A DNA stretch of 5,176 bases from Pseudomonadota bacterium (GTDB lineage: Bacteria > Pseudomonadota > Gammaproteobacteria > Burkholderiales > Burkholderiaceae_D): positions 1 to 5,176 of the forward strand of contig JAEWBA010000353.1 in NCBI GenBank assembly GCA_023391395.1, read 5' to 3'. Under the pieces are notes generated by a model, which saw only the letters and a program-made list of their open reading frames with translations, ran no database searches and was not told where the DNA came from. A program made the position numbers and the translations under genes. Every line of letters starts with the position of its first letter. Position 1 is the first letter of the stretch. This document shows positions 446 to 5,176 of this stretch, in pieces.

Positions 446-1618
446 ATGATGATGTCAGTGACCCATTTGATCGATATCGCCATGGTGGCGACTCTGGCCA
501 GCTTCGTGGCCAGCATGTTGATCGTTCTCACCCAGGGCTGGCACGGTCGTCTCTCGCTCGACGGCGACGTGACCAGCATCCAGAAATTCCACAAACGGCC
601 GGTGCCGCGCATCGGCGGCCTCGCAGTGGCGATCGGCGTCTTTTCTGCGTTCCTGTTCGGCGCCGCCACCGAACCCCGCGCCCTCCAGGGCGACAGTGCC
701 GGCGACGTCTTCAGGCTGCTCCTGGCAGGCATGCCAGCCTTCCTCGCCGGCCTCACCGAAGATCTCACCAAGAGGGTGTCGGTGCGAGTACGCCTCACGG
801 CCACTCTGGCCAGCGCCGTGCTGGCCTACTGGCTGCTGGGCGCCTATCTGCCGCGCATCGATGTTTGGGGTTTGGACGCCCTGTTCGCGGTGCTGCCGCT
901 TGCGATCCTGATCACGTCGGTGGCGGTGGCCGGCGTCGCCAACTCGATCAACATCATCGACGGCTTCCATGGCGTTGCCGGCAGCGCAGTAGTCATCCTC
1001 TTGGCCGGGCTCGGCGTGCTGGCATGGCAGGCGGGCGATGCTTTCGTGGCACGACTGGCACTGCTCGGCATCGGCGCCACCATCGGTTTCCTGCTGGTGA
1101 ACTATCCGACCGGCCGCCTCTTCATGGGCGATGGCGGCGCTTACCTGATGGGCTTCTGGGTCGCCGAGGTGGCGGTGCTGCTGGTGCTGCGCAATCCCTC
1201 GATCAATGCATGGCAGGTGCTGGCCGTCTGCGCCTATCCCATCATCGAAGTCATGTACAGCATCTACCGCCGTATCGTCATTCGCAAGGTCAGCCCCGGC
1301 GCACCGGATCGCTTGCATCTGCATACGCTGGTCTATCGGCGGCTGGTGTGCCAGTTGATCCCGCGCAACGACGGCAAACCGTGGATACGCAATGCCGCCG
1401 TCGCGCTGGTCCTGGCAGCGTGGATGGCGCTGGCGGCGATGGCGGGGATCAAGTTCGGCGATAGCGTCGCTTCCGCCGTGACCGTGGTGATCCTGGAAGC
1501 GCTGGCCTACATGGCGGTCTATACGCGCCTGATCCGCGGCCGCTGGCAGATGCGCCCGCGCTTTTCCCTGGAGATCCGGCCCGGCCCGGTGGTGCGGCTT
1601 TCGAGGAGGAAGTGGTGA
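446..1618 (+). CDS. MraY/WecA-family sugar-1-phosphate transferase
   Basis: A 390-residue polytopic inner-membrane protein with about ten hydrophobic segments. The family transfers a sugar-1-phosphate from a UDP-sugar to undecaprenyl phosphate, the first committed step of lipid-linked glycan assembly. Visible family motifs in order are HKRPVPRIGG (49-58), TEDLTKR (104-110, in the place of the Asp-Asp motif), NSINIIDGFHG (166-176) with the conserved Asn and Asp, FMGDGG (226-231) with Asp229, and HLHT (291-294) in the cytoplasmic loop that carries the HxH signature. The basic C-terminal tail is cytoplasmic-like. Three ATGs occur in a row at 446, 449 and 452. GGGAG at 437-441 best suits 449 or 452, so the start may be three or six bases later. 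The open frame extends upstream to 137, but that part has no family character. The sugar (GlcNAc, GalNAc or a modified hexosamine) cannot be told from sequence. It is likely co-transcribed with the RfaH-like gene it overlaps. Confidence 0.9.
   Translation: MMMSVTHLIDIAMVATLASFVASMLIVLTQGWHGRLSLDGDVTSIQKFHKRPVPRIGGLAVAIGVFSAFLFGAATEPRALQGDSAGDVFRLLLAGMPAFLAGLTEDLTKRVSVRVRLTATLASAVLAYWLLGAYLPRIDVWGLDALFAVLPLAILITSVAVAGVANSINIIDGFHGVAGSAVVILLAGLGVLAWQAGDAFVARLALLGIGATIGFLLVNYPTGRLFMGDGGAYLMGFWVAEVAVLLVLRNPSINAWQVLAVCAYPIIEVMYSIYRRIVIRKVSPGAPDRLHLHTLVYRRLVCQLIPRNDGKPWIRNAAVALVLAAWMALAAMAGIKFGDSVASAVTVVILEALAYMAVYTRLIRGRWQMRPRFSLEIRPGPVVRLSRRKW
1604..1609 (+). promoter_or_regulatory. Consensus ribosome binding site of rfaH-like gene
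   Basis: AGGAGG lies inside the last codons of the transferase, eight bases before ATG 1618. It is the best Shine-Dalgarno sequence in the window and decides the start of the RfaH-like protein at ATG 1618 over the in-frame GTGs at 1612 and 1615, which are too close to it. Confidence 0.85.
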
Positions 1619-2142
1619 TGCAGAACGAAGGACAGGGCACTCAATTCGGCGAGCGCGCGGCTGCATGGTACCTGGTGCAAACCAAGCCGCGCCAGGAATT
1701 CCGTGCGCTTGAGCATTTGCAGCGCCAGCAGTACGAGTGCTTCCTGCCGCTTCTTGCTGCCGAGCGCGTGCGCGGAGGGCGGCTGGAGTCCTGCGTGGAG
1801 CCGCTGTTCGCGCGCTACCTGTTCATCCGCCTCAATACGACGGACAGCAACTGGGCACCGATACGCAGCACGCGCGGCGTCAGCCGGATGGTCGCCTTCG
1901 GCAGCCGCTACGCGACCTTGCCCGAGGAGTGCGTCGAAGCCCTGCGCGATGCGCCGCCGGCACCGCGCGTGCCCTTGTTTGCGCCGGGCGAACGGATAGC
2001 GATTACCTCGGGGCCGTTTGCCGGCTTGGACGGGATTTACCAGGCGCCGGATGGCGAGGCGCGCGCGCTGATTCTGATCGAGTTGATGAGCCAGCCGCAG
2101 AAGCTGCGGCTGGCGGTGAGCGCCTTGCGCAAGGCGGCATGA
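1618..2142 (+). CDS. rfaH: RfaH-type transcription antitermination factor
   Basis: A 174-residue NusG paralogue. RfaH binds RNA polymerase paused at ops DNA, suppresses pausing and Rho-dependent termination, and its C-terminal KOW domain then recruits ribosomes via S10. An NGN domain spans about 16-110 (WYLVQTKPRQE at 17-27, EPLFARYLFIRL at 61-72, STRGVSRMVAFG at 84-95) and a KOW domain about 120-174 (PGERIAITSGPFAG, PDGEAR). Compared from memory with E. coli RfaH (162 aa), the basic residues K10, R16 and R73 correspond to K23, R29 and R86. The interdomain salt-bridge pair E48-R138 corresponds to E61 and R149, so the autoinhibited fold-switching state may be preserved. F130 is Tyr141, and the ops-contacting H65-T66-T67 is Asn78-Trp79-Ala80. 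There is a 13-residue N-terminal extension. The start overlaps the stop of the transferase (TGATG), suggesting translational coupling. PDGEAR and EPLF argue against housekeeping NusG. Confidence 0.9.
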   Translation: MQNEGQGTQFGERAAAWYLVQTKPRQEFRALEHLQRQQYECFLPLLAAERVRGGRLESCVEPLFARYLFIRLNTTDSNWAPIRSTRGVSRMVAFGSRYATLPEECVEALRDAPPAPRVPLFAPGERIAITSGPFAGLDGIYQAPDGEARALILIELMSQPQKLRLAVSALRKAA

Positions 2143-2153
2143 GCGGGAGGAAA

Positions 2154-2237
2154 GCGGCGGACACCTGCCGCCCGAGACAGAAATAGATCTCGCCGCAAGC
2201 GGCGACCGGATACGCGGCGCGTGCAGGAGAGCGCCGC
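2154..2237 (+). repeat. Cluster of GCGGCG/CGCCGC inverted repeats
   Basis: Six GC half-sites lie in 84 bases between rfaH and ops. GGCGG (2156-2160) pairs with CCGCC (2168-2172). TCGCCGC (2190-2196) and GCGGCGA (2199-2205) form a perfect inverted repeat with a two-base centre. GCGGCGC (2214-2220) and GCGCCGC (2231-2237) form a perfect seven-pair stem around a ten-base loop. None is followed by a T run, so they are not clear intrinsic terminators. They may be an RNA structure in the 3' end of the rfaH transcript, a protein operator, or both. Confidence 0.5.
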
Positions 2238-2291
2238 TTGCAGCATGAGCCTCGGAGGCATTGGGGCCTGAATTGGAAGTTGGTAGGAGGT

Positions 2292-2320
2292 CCTTTGGAA
2301 TACGACCTGTAATCCAAGGG
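2292..2320 (+). promoter_or_regulatory. Hairpin abutting the ops element
   Basis: CCTTTGGA (2292-2299) pairs with TCCAAGGG (2313-2320) over eight pairs, one of them G-U, with a 13-base loop. Its last two bases are the first two of ops. A nascent-RNA hairpin at this distance behind RNA polymerase could affect the ops pause. JUMPstart sequences in enterobacteria are also predicted to form leader hairpins. Confidence 0.5.
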
Positions 2321-2330
2321 CGGTAGCGTG
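2319..2330 (+). promoter_or_regulatory. ops element (JUMPstart core)
   Basis: GGCGGTAGCGTG is identical to the 12-base ops sequence found in the leaders of RfaH-controlled operons in E. coli. The flanks CCAAG before and C after also match typical JUMPstart sequences. In known systems RNA polymerase pauses here and the exposed non-template strand recruits RfaH. It lies 176 bases after the stop of the rfaH-like gene and 74 bases before the tviB-like start, on the coding strand, which is the expected arrangement for control of the downstream sugar operon. Confidence 0.88.
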
Positions 2331-2341
2331 CCCGGATGGAA

Positions 2342-2358
2342 GGTACGAAGCCCGTACC
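2342..2358 (+). promoter_or_regulatory. Hairpin just downstream of ops
   Basis: GGTACG (2342-2347) and CGTACC (2353-2358) form a perfect six-pair stem with a five-base AAGCC loop, 11 bases after ops. A weaker stem follows: CCAGA (2361-2365) with TCTGG (2373-2377), then TTT. Either could be a pause or weak attenuation signal that an RfaH-modified polymerase would pass. No strong terminator is present. Confidence 0.45.
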
Positions 2359-2404
2359 GGCCAGATCGGGATTCTGGTTTCTCGTTCAGCGACTAACAAT
2401 CACG

Positions 2405-3682
2405 ATGAAAATTTCCATCAATACCCACATCGCCATCATCGGCCTCGGCTACGTCGGCCTGCCTCTTGCAGTCGAATTCGGCAAGCGCTATCCCACCATC
2501 GGCTACGACATCAACCGACGGCGTGTCGCCGAGCTGCGGACCGGAAACGATTCCACGCTAGAGGTCGGAGCCGAGGAACTGCGGGCGGCGGCGCGCCTGA
2601 GCTTCTCTACCGAGCTCGAGGACCTACGCCGTGCCAGCGTTTTCATCGTCAGCGTGCCCACGCCCGTGGACGACCACAAGAAACCGGACCTCACTCCCTT
2701 GCGCAAGGCATCTGAAACGGTGGGGAAGGTGCTCAAGCGTGGCGACATCGTGGTTTACGAATCGACGGTTTATCCGGGCGCCACGGAAGAGTATTGCGTG
2801 CCGGTACTGGAGGCGGTGTCGGGGCTGAGGTTCAACCGCGACTTCTTCGCCGGCTACAGCCCGGAGCGCATCAATCCCGGCGACAAGGAACATCGCCTGA
2901 CCTCGATCACCAAGGTCACCTCCGGATCGACGCCGCAAGCCGCCGACTTCGTCGATGCCCTGTATGCCAGCATCGTGCAGGCCGGTACCCACAAGGCTTC
3001 CTCGATCAAGGTGGCCGAGGCGGCCAAGGTGATCGAGAACACCCAGCGCGATCTGAACATCGCGCTCATGAACGAGCTGGCCATCATCTTCAGGAAGATG
3101 GGCATCGATACCGAGGAAGTACTGCAGGCCGCCGGCACCAAATGGAACTTCCTGCCGTTCCGGCCCGGCCTGGTCGGCGGCCACTGCATCGGTGTCGATC
3201 CCTACTATCTGACACACAAGGCCGAAGGCTTGGGCTACCACCCCCAGGTGATTCTGGCGGGACGCCGCATCAACGACAACATGGGCGGCTACGTGGTCGG
3301 GCAATTGATCAAGCAGATGGTGCGCAGCCATATCCCAATCGAGAACGCCAATGTCCTGGTGCTGGGCCTGTCCTTCAAGGAGAACTGCCCTGACCTGCGC
3401 AATACCAAGGTGATGGACACGGTCAACAAGCTCAAGGACTACAACGTCAACGTCGACGTCTATGACCCCTGGGTCGATGCCGAGAGCGCCCATCACGAAT
3501 ATGGGATTACGCCGATCGCCGAGCCCGAGCCCGGCCGCTACGACGCCATCGTGCTGGCAGTCGCGCATCGCCAGTTCCGCGAACTGGGTGCGGCCGGCCT
3601 GCGCCGCTTCGGCAAGGAAAGGCACGTGCTGTTCGATCTCAAGTACGTGCTGCCCAAGGCGCAGGCCGACATGCGCTTGTAA
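2405..3682 (+). CDS. tviB: UDP-N-acetylhexosamine 6-dehydrogenase, TviB-like
   Basis: A 425-residue cytoplasmic NAD-dependent enzyme of the UDP-glucose/GDP-mannose dehydrogenase family. It oxidises C6 of UDP-GlcNAc (or UDP-GalNAc) to the uronic acid. The N-terminal Rossmann domain has GLGYVG at 13-18. Next come [22 protein letters not shown] and [10 protein letters not shown], and the central helix [13 protein letters not shown] carrying Lys208 and Asn212. The catalytic cysteine is in [12 protein letters not shown] (Cys261). The C-terminal UDP-binding domain contains [14 protein letters not shown] and ends LFDLKYVLP. Similarity to Salmonella Vi-antigen TviB is strong throughout, and the eight residues before IAIIG match in number, which supports ATG 2405. 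The frame is open from ATG 2336, but that extension lacks family character. No Shine-Dalgarno sequence precedes 2405, an oddity that fits RfaH-dependent ribosome recruitment. The donor (GlcNAc versus GalNAc) is inferred from the tviC partner. Confidence 0.92.
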
Positions 3683-3705
3683 TTCCCGTTACCGAAAGGA
3701 TGGGC

Positions 3706-4749
3706 ATGGACCGCTTTCAAGAGATTCAGGATGCATTGCGCGCGCAGCCGAAGACCTGGCTGGTGACCGGCTGCGCCGGCTTCATCGGCTCCAACCTGCT
3801 GGAAACCCTACTGCGCCTCGACCAGACCGTGATCGGGCTGGATAACTTTTCCACCGGCTACCAGCACAATCTCGACGATGTGAGGGAATGCGTCACGCCG
3901 CGGCAGTGGGCGCGCTTCTCTTTCATCCGCGGCGACGTGCGCGATCTCAACGCCTGCCGGGAAGCCATGGCCAGCGTGGACCATGTGCTGCACCAGGCGG
4001 CGCTGGGCTCGGTGCCGCGCTCGATCAGCGATCCGATCGCGACCAACGAAACCAATATCGGCGGCTTCCTCAACATGCTGGTCGCCGCGCGCGACGCCGG
4101 GGTGCAGTCTTTTGTCTACGCCGCCTCGAGTTCCACCTATGGCGACCATCCCGGCTTGCCCAAGGTCGAGGAACGCATCGGCAAGCCGCTTTCGCCGTAC
4201 GCGGTAACCAAGTACGTGAACGAGTTGTATGCCGACGTGTTCGCGCGCTGCTATGGCTTCCAGAGCATAGGCCTGCGCTACTTCAATGTCTTCGGCAAGC
4301 GCCAGGACCCGAACGGCGCTTACGCGGCGGTAATCCCGACCTGGACCGCTGCCATGATCCGCGGCGAGGAAGTGGTCATCAACGGCGACGGCGACACCAG
4401 CCGCGACTTCTGCTTCATCGACAACGCGGTGCAGGCCAATCTGCTGGCCGCGATGGCGCCGGAAGAATGCCGTAACAACGTCTACAACGTTGCGGTCGGC
4501 GACATCACCACGCTGAACCAGTTGTTCGGCTACCTCAAATCGACGCTCTGCAGCAACGACATTCCGGTGACGGCCGAGCCCGTCTACAGGGAATTCCGCA
4601 AGGGCGACGTCAGGCATTCGCAAGCCGACATCGGCAAGGCCGCGGACAAGCTCGGCTATGCGCCGGCATTCCACATACGCCAGGGGCTGGAAGCGGCAAT
4701 GCCCTGGTATGTGAAGCAGAGCCGCAAGAGTGGCCTGGAACGAAGATGA
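3706..4749 (+). CDS. tviC: UDP-N-acetylhexosaminuronate 4-epimerase, TviC-like
   Basis: A 347-residue extended short-chain dehydrogenase/reductase that inverts C4 of a UDP-HexNAc or UDP-HexNAc uronate through a 4-keto intermediate. In the Vi pathway it converts UDP-GlcNAcA to UDP-GalNAcA; Pseudomonas WbpP is a related epimerase. The NAD site is GCAGFIG at 22-28. The active site has SSSTYGDHP with Ser143 and the YxxxK pair Tyr165 and Lys169 in SPYAVTK. Epimerase-type landmarks [42 protein letters not shown] and [15 protein letters not shown] are all present, and length equals the family norm. AAAGGA at 3695-3700 sits five bases before ATG 3706. The upstream in-frame ATG at 3700 overlaps that site, so 3706 is chosen. 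The gene follows tviB after a 23-base gap and is surely in the same operon. Confidence 0.92.
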
Positions 4750-4825: not shown

Positions 4826-5176
4826 ATGAAACTTGCAGATTTCGATGAGGAAATACAGGTGAATGGCTGGTACCTGTTCCACCATGCCATCGGCGAGCGG
4901 CTGGTGATGCAGATGCGCCGCGATTGCCTGAAGTGGGTGGATTACTGCCGGGAGATCCAGATCGCCAAGAAAATCAACGAGGATGGCGACGGCACCGGAC
5001 ACCACGCGGTCGGCACAGGCGACAGCATCGACGAATTCGTCAACCTGCACCTGTTCCACCCCTATCTTTCGCACTACTTCGGCCATGCACCCTACATCAT
5101 GCATGCATGCAATCCCGTGGCAGGGCCGCCGCGGTCAAACATCTACATCCACAAGCTGCATCGCGATGTACAGACT
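4826..5176 (+). CDS. Putative PhyH-type dioxygenase, 3' truncated
   Basis: The frame from ATG 4826 stays open for 117 codons to the end of the window, so the C-terminal part is missing. GGTGAG at 4818-4823, in the run GGAAGGGGTGAG, is a plausible ribosome site. The start MKLADFDEEIQVNGWYLFHH resembles the N-terminus of phytanoyl-CoA-dioxygenase-family proteins (an acidic helix, then an xxGxYxF strand). Near the truncation the motif HRDVQT offers His112 and Asp114 as the HxD iron ligands of Fe(II)/2-oxoglutarate oxygenases; the distal His would lie beyond the window. PhyH-like proteins occur in polysaccharide and secondary-metabolite clusters, where they hydroxylate or oxidise precursors, but the substrate here is unknown. 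The assignment rests on motif shape and is moderate. It is 76 bases after tviC, across a terminator-like hairpin. Confidence 0.6.
   Translation, partial: MKLADFDEEIQVNGWYLFHHAIGERLVMQMRRDCLKWVDYCREIQIAKKINEDGDGTGHHAVGTGDSIDEFVNLHLFHPYLSHYFGHAPYIMHACNPVAGPPRSNIYIHKLHRDVQT

Follow-up and report, generated by a model that had tools for sequence, protein, structure and literature searches.

RfaH of Escherichia coli acts on several unlinked targets (PMC7593976), and its side chains K10, H20, R23 and R73 contact the ops element (PMC5995543). Wang et al. 2020 (PMC7593976) described RfaH clusters CL2-CL8, of which CL7 belongs to exopolysaccharide operons of Shewanella and CL4 has a helix-turn-helix (HTH) regulator as its neighbour, and the same paper states that the recruitment of operon-encoded NusG paralogues is unknown. 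In Azotobacter, rfaH adjoins a lipopolysaccharide (LPS) island (PMC4465626), and in R6K the main vir-operon promoter precedes actX (PMC13250579). A 2026 preprint (PMC13015549) reported that RfaH genes adjoin an operon in 17/212 metamorphic, 8/12 mixed and 7/10 monomorphic cases; it treats monomorphic cis RfaH as ops-independent, and its available text shows no ops search near these genes. Here we analysed a 5,176-nucleotide stretch of bacterial DNA (contig JAEWBA010000353.1; hereafter the window) in which a gene for an RfaH-type protein lies 176 nucleotides before a perfect ops element, GGCGGTAGCGTG, on the same strand, with a JUMPstart-type hairpin directly before ops. The protein is predicted, with good probability, to load there on paused RNA polymerase and to take it onward across the downstream polysaccharide genes.

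An RfaH-type gene precedes a perfect ops element

The window reads, on the + strand only and from 5' to 3', Glycos_transf_4 gene, rfaH-type gene, 176-nucleotide gap, ops, TviB-like gene, TviC-like gene and a partial open reading frame (ORF) (Table 1). The RfaH-type protein scored 162.3 bits with TIGR01955 (cut-off 144.5) and 135.8 bits with PRK09014 (cut-off 124). Its best relatives among solved structures were E. coli RfaH chains, and its identity to E. coli RfaH was about 36%. Identity with UpxY (NF033644, 69.5 bits, cut-off 100), with LoaP (NF033641, 45.5 bits, cut-off 125) and with NusG was rejected on profile cut-offs. The Rho-binding loop IFG of NusG is absent; LMS is found at E. coli RfaH L145-I146-N147, as read from the alignment of structural relatives, with loop positions taken from PMC7593976. 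The four residues that contact ops in E. coli are all identical in the window protein, and the autoinhibition contacts E48 and R138 are retained. This complete ops-contact set was present in just 3/151 rows of the comparison, the window among these three; K10, Q24 and T72 are near-universal across rows, and position H20 is mostly Asn. Most cis members keep ops though at least one contact residue differs, which the E. coli picture leaves unexplained. The N-terminal domain was modelled with confidence by AlphaFold2, and the best structural match of the model was 8phk, RfaH fully recruited at ops. The C-terminal domain (residues 111-174), where free RfaH has an alpha-helical hairpin, was mixed strand and helix in two jobs, with a predicted local distance difference test (pLDDT) score of 54-80 by block; it consisted of short strands and a helix at 146-158, plus a helix at 160-173 in the second job.

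The exact ops match is unique in the window and lies between genes, on the coding strand, ahead of the polysaccharide genes. From its base composition, the window would contain about 0.002 exact matches by chance. Sites with three or fewer mismatches were about as frequent as chance predicts (10 against 8.97), and therefore only the exact match counts. The original prediction, an RfaH-like gene with a perfect ops 176 bases further on and polysaccharide genes after it, agrees with the family cut-offs, the exact motif search and the TviB- and TviC-like genes that follow. The 12-mer is exact, and the element is longer than that prediction stated: the Rfam family RF01707 (JUMPstart) aligns upstream of ops and across it with an E-value of 0.028. 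As this score is under the gathering score of the family, we name the element JUMPstart-type or JUMPstart-like and not a curated member.

The nearest named homologues of the window RfaH, among the best 120 of 1961, were from Noviherbaspirillum and other Oxalobacteraceae at ~60-70% identity. This fits the earlier proposal that factor and ops share a locus in a non-enteric proteobacterium, and the source bacterium is probably related to Noviherbaspirillum. In a phage collection, a close relative of the window RfaH was not found (best identity 36%). In a plasmid collection searched at megablast sensitivity, eight records matched, in tviB only.

The pairing of rfaH and ops recurs in related loci

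To determine how often the pairing occurs, species genomes were scanned once with a 17-row profile, which gave 117 relatives, and the best 80 loci were kept. Exact ops occurred 25 times in 24 of these 80 loci, always downstream and on the rfaH strand, and nowhere else in them. In the same loci, the reversed 12-mer was found once, and 300 letter-shuffled 12-mers were found 0.13 times on average (maximum 3). Ops lay within 500 bases in 22 of the 79 kept loci that have at least 300 bases downstream. Loci without ops had few 10- and 12-mers in common. Near-identical RfaH proteins without ops were seen in six differently named metagenome bins (L046, L047, L049, L050, L052, L056), perhaps a single organism binned several times.

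A FastTree tree of 154 rows was built from 162 rfaH loci including the window, of which nine were removed (duplicates or cut contigs) and to which E. coli was added; many forks in it are open. The window clade is a fully supported set of eight rows, and ops is present in cis in 8/8. Ops is thus kept in orthologous loci, the check that the original prediction had proposed. The distance from rfaH to ops in this clade is 97-394 nucleotides in seven rows and 1874 nucleotides, with an ORF between, in L005. In all three relatives tested for the preceding gene, L001, L003 and L007, a Glycos_transf_4 gene lies directly before rfaH, and a UDP-sugar dehydrogenase gene comes after ops; different polysaccharide genes are found past ops in L002, L004 and L013. 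Across the whole tree, the ops label changed at least 38 times, compared to a mean of 47 and a minimum of 39 in 200 shuffles, suggesting that gains or losses were frequent.

Direct rfaH-ops gaps measured 47-394 nucleotides in 35 loci, two being duplicates, and in other loci 500-3200 nucleotides separate rfaH from ops. A conserved promoter in this interval was unsupported (z 1.2). In the 35 direct gaps, a strong terminator-like site was found in L004, where the hairpin arms are 14 bases long and a run of T is present, together with five weaker pattern matches elsewhere. A variant of ops, TGCGGTAGCCTG, was seen on the rfaH strand 61-2590 nucleotides downstream in L016, L030, L062, L066, L106, L107 and L193; further variants were GGCGGTAGCCTG in L011 and L028 and GGCGGTAGCATG in L033. 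In the recurrent variant, the central GGTAGC is retained and positions 1 and 10 differ.

Two wider genome samples were then compared, each including a known-positive centre genome. Sample 1 comprised 300 genomes from the order to which the L001 genome belongs; an RfaH match of at least 95 bits was found in 33/300, and an exact same-strand ops within 3.3 kb downstream in 13/33 (12/32 minus the centre). In one of the 13, G268, the ops lies beside a partial RfaH match of 71 bits. Sample 2 comprised 229 genomes of the class of the Marinobacter genome L065; RfaH was found in 51/229, with a same-strand ops within 3.3 kb downstream in 18/51 (17/50 minus the centre) and ops upstream of rfaH in two further genomes. 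The chance expectation was 0.023 and 0.045 ops-bearing genomes in samples 1 and 2, respectively. The rfaH-ops arrangement is therefore not confined to one bacterium and recurs in the gammaproteobacterial sample. The original prediction also proposed that the module travels with its polysaccharide operon; the presence of RfaH is scattered (33/300 genomes; 17/116 in another set), which would suit transfer or loss.

In gammaproteobacterial loci, an ORF of ~200 amino acids often lies between rfaH and ops. All five intervening ORFs scanned contained a winged-helix (HTH_24) domain (Table 1). Ops precedes the rfaH match in L159 (by 98 nucleotides) and L160 (by 536 nucleotides), so that rfaH itself would belong to the ops-led unit there.

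A hairpin precedes ops across loci

We gathered 56 exact-ops leaders at rfaH loci and used 53 of them, after two repeats and one cut leader had been removed; L159 and L160, with ops upstream of rfaH, are among the 53. With a stem geometry narrowed after the leaders had been looked at singly, the pooled stem score was 12.3 on average, compared to 5.1 in shuffled leaders (z 10.2) and to 5.8 when the 5' and 3' parts were exchanged between loci (z 9.9). For the 40 leaders that are less than 70% alike, z was 9.4 against shuffles and 8.5 against exchanged arms. The control of 20 ops matches inside genes gave a z of -0.1. A stem score of at least 10 was reached by 48/53 cis leaders and by 6/20 in-gene matches. 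The arms TTTGGA/TCCAAG are found in the window and four relatives and TTTCGA/TCGAAG in L040; other loci pair TGCTG/CAGCA or TGCCG/CGGCA, L150 and L151 GTGCGG/CTGCAT, and L077 CGGGG/CCCCG. By these comparisons, the stem before ops is kept through compensating changes: the letters vary by group and the pairing persists.

Features and flanking genes of the window

The ATG of the rfaH-type gene overlaps the stop codon of the Glycos_transf_4 gene (TGATG). The start of the latter was our choice within a longer ORF (137-1618), and the ORF listing starts the rfaH-type gene at GTG 1612 (176 amino acids); the ATG reading is used here. The Shine-Dalgarno sequence of the rfaH-type gene is strong (duplex -11.3 kcal/mol), and the ATG of the TviB-like gene at 2405 has no Shine-Dalgarno match (-0.2 kcal/mol). 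Five bases past ops, at 2336, a further in-frame ATG would make the TviB ORF longer, and its Shine-Dalgarno match (-7.2) is better than that of ATG 2405. The start at 2405, not 2336, fits the TviB model end to end: the protein then has 425 amino acids, as PRK15182 has, and its residues 7-425 align with profile positions 7-425 of 425. A general lack of a Shine-Dalgarno sequence in the first gene after ops was considered and rejected; it holds for the window tviB if the start is 2405, and not across loci. The TviC-like ORF has an additional in-frame ATG at 3700, which was the start used in the profile scan. The truncated downstream ORF had no Pfam or NCBIfam match at an E-value of 0.001. No promoter-like site was detected in the window, the rfaH-ops gap included, and no + strand terminator-like site was detected in that gap.

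Table 1. Coordinates of the features discussed, in the window unless another locus is named.
Feature	Position	Strand	Basis
Glycos_transf_4 gene (WecA/MraY-like sugar-phosphate transferase)	449..1618	+	Pfam PF00953, 86 bits
rfaH-type gene, 174 amino acids from ATG	1618..2142	+	NCBIfam RfaH cut-offs, E. coli RfaH structures
Gap from rfaH stop to ops, 176 nucleotides	2143..2318	+	sequence
JUMPstart-like element	2288..2330	+	Rfam RF01707, 25.0 bits, gathering 35
Hairpin 5' arm TTTGGA (JUMPstart-type)	2294..2299	+	Rfam alignment, cross-locus pairing test
Hairpin 3' arm TCCAAG (JUMPstart-type)	2313..2318	+	Rfam alignment, cross-locus pairing test
Perfect ops GGCGGTAGCGTG	2319..2330	+	exact motif search
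TviB-like UDP-GlcNAc C-6 dehydrogenase gene	2405..3682	+	PRK15182, 654 bits, cut-off 592
TviC-like UDP-sugar C-4 epimerase gene	3706..4749	+	PRK15181, 500 bits, below cut-off 760
Downstream ORF, truncated by window end	4826..5176	+	open reading frame
Intervening winged-helix gene, L144	1192-1830		HTH_24
Intervening winged-helix gene, L146	1137-1733		HTH_24
Intervening winged-helix gene, L147	1118-1729		HTH_24
Intervening winged-helix gene, L150	1132-1788		HTH_24
Intervening winged-helix gene, L161	3007-3624		HTH_24

Proposed mechanism and points against it

The window holds the gene, the hairpin and ops in this order, and the arrangement recurs in other genomes far above chance. As the same pairing is found in many bacteria, rfaH and ops are likely to form one self-contained switch, and from the sequence evidence the pair is most likely a working RfaH-ops unit in cis. 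In such a unit, ops would be reached either by read-through from rfaH or from a promoter of its own, and RNA polymerase would pause there as in E. coli. RfaH would read G5 and T6 of the non-template strand via K10, H20, R23 and R73; autoinhibition, for which E48 and R138 are kept, would then be released, and the factor would exclude NusG. It may also help the ribosome onto tviB, whose likely start is without a Shine-Dalgarno match. The cis-encoded RfaH would still be addressed by ops, mainly for its own operon.

Several observations weigh against this reading. Exact ops was unseen downstream in 56 of the 80 close loci, some of whose contigs end early. A variant alone was present in 10 of 162 rfaH loci, counted without a shuffled control and with a pattern drawn up after the first cases had been seen. 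The terminator-like site in L004 suggests that the genes after ops would need their own promoter there. The Shine-Dalgarno sequence of the first gene after ops was not clearly weaker in 25 loci (p 0.20), in a comparison with a crude choice of starts that took ATG 2336 for the window. In an Rfam scan of 19 other cis loci, JUMPstart was found in L149 alone, at 28.6 bits and under the gathering score. Taken alone, the window hairpin did not exceed shuffled sequences in stability (z -0.86), so the case for it rests on the comparison between loci; there, the per-leader test was weak, with p of 0.05 or less in 9/53 leaders and in 2/20 in-gene ops matches (median p 0.20 and 0.71, respectively; window 0.23), and the pooled geometry was fixed with these results in view. 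Two autoinhibition contacts differ in the protein, with Tyr in place of F130 and Val in place of I93. R73 failed as a predictor of ops: R or K was present in 34/61 ops rows and 31/90 others, and the association was gone in kinship-corrected pairs. The mixed C-terminal fold, a doubtful prediction of low confidence, fits the mixed-fold class of the preprint, whose members are often cis-located (8/12) and without RfaH-dependent coupling (PMC13015549), and this lowers our confidence slightly.

Alternative explanations

The best surviving alternative, which we consider unlikely, is an ordinary trans-acting RfaH that, like that of E. coli, controls a number of unlinked operons with ops and lies near one target only through the clustering of polysaccharide genes. 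The E. coli set of ops contacts together with E48 and R138 in the window protein would suit such a factor. It would act on ops sites away from rfaH, and these were sought in 27 genomes reached via the loci, 23 with an exact and 4 with a variant cis ops. Exact ops occurred 47 times in these genomes, 25 of them being the cis sites, and the reversed pattern was nearly equally frequent (42). All 22 non-cis matches were retrieved, and 18 lie inside ORFs of at least 200 amino acids, compared to 2/10 cis sites in the same listing; this threshold was chosen since 7/10 cis sites also fall in ORFs of 80 amino acids. The remaining four are in shorter ORFs (L137, L141) or outside any ORF of 80 amino acids (L122, L123). 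The last two, both in Methylococcaceae, have their second ops away from rfaH and following GTGACACAGTA, with a hairpin in L122 and not in L123; they are possible trans targets. Several genomes of the gammaproteobacterial sample, in which only cis positions were examined, hold 3-5 ops, which also favours action in trans. Of the 23 genomes whose cis ops is exact, 20 showed no further ops outside a long ORF, suggesting that the factor there would serve mainly its own operon. The linkage of rfaH and ops, far above chance, likewise argues against a factor that is near its target by clustering alone.

A still less probable alternative is that the protein loads in cis during its synthesis on the same mRNA, as in the published 'ancestral' model, and that ops is merely a pause. 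The gene is indeed in cis, direct gaps of 47-394 nucleotides suit a trailing ribosome, cis-located, ops-independent monomorphic RfaH proteins have been reported (PMC13015549), and the C-terminal fold of the window protein is uncertain. Against it stand the four base-contact residues in the window protein, the covarying hairpin and the exact 12-mer, which have been retained, and the spacing of 500-3200 nucleotides in other loci. That the 12-mer is a chance match is hardly credible and was rejected: it does occur somewhere in 157/300 genomes of sample 1, where its reversal is common too, so that its presence alone in a genome carries little information, and yet the expected count in the window, the shuffled 12-mers and the recurrence of position, strand and hairpin in relatives, downstream on the rfaH strand and throughout the window clade, all stand against it.

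The working RfaH-ops unit in cis thus remains the preferred reading. More tentatively, and with slightly less confidence than an even chance would imply, cis-encoded, ops-addressed RfaH may make up a third and widespread state, lying between the two classes of the published evolutionary scheme ('cis, ops-independent' and 'trans, ops-dependent'): portable one-target cassettes whose factor and address are co-inherited, with lineage-specific ops dialects (such as TGCGGTAGCCTG, in seven loci) that might make neighbouring cassettes orthogonal. Across the two samples, ops follows rfaH within 3.3 kb in 31 of the 84 genomes that carry the gene, so that recruitment can be tested directly in dozens of naturally occurring pairs of factor and address. 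Such pairs also provide a way to study how RfaH could pass from acting in cis to acting in trans, and a supply of compact activators for long operons, some of which may be orthogonal.

Comparison with known systems

The window resembles the E. coli RfaH/ops-JUMPstart system in its family cut-offs, its four base contacts, the exact ops, the hairpin and the polysaccharide genes behind it. It differs in that the gene ends 176 nucleotides before ops and in the protein itself (~36% identity, F130Y, I93V). Like CL2-CL8, it has an rfaH-like gene beside envelope or polysaccharide genes, and the HTH neighbour of CL4 (PMC7593976) has a fitting counterpart in the winged-helix genes that separate rfaH from ops in the five gammaproteobacterial loci scanned. 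Unlike the window, these clusters are described, in the available text of that paper, by their neighbours and not by ops at the loci. UpxY of Bacteroides, LoaP of Bacillus and TaA of Myxococcus share with the window a NusG paralogue encoded in or beside the target operon (PMC7593976, PMC7819879); in contrast, the window protein is under the UpxY and LoaP cut-offs, and the available parts of these sources name no ops for UpxY, LoaP or TaA. ActX/PrfaH of IncX plasmids is likewise an RfaH homologue (the PrfaH structure 9ik0 was a weak match, E 1.8e-4), and differs in serving a plasmid conjugation operon, with 0 uses of 'ops' in the available text of PMC13250579. We found no report of rfaH paired with its own ops in the open-licence literature (including the available parts of PMC6391919, PMC7247339 and PMC2864571), a scope outside which most subscription journals lie. 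RfaH and ops are each known; their probable working pair in cis falls outside the split between cis, ops-independent and trans, ops-dependent factors.

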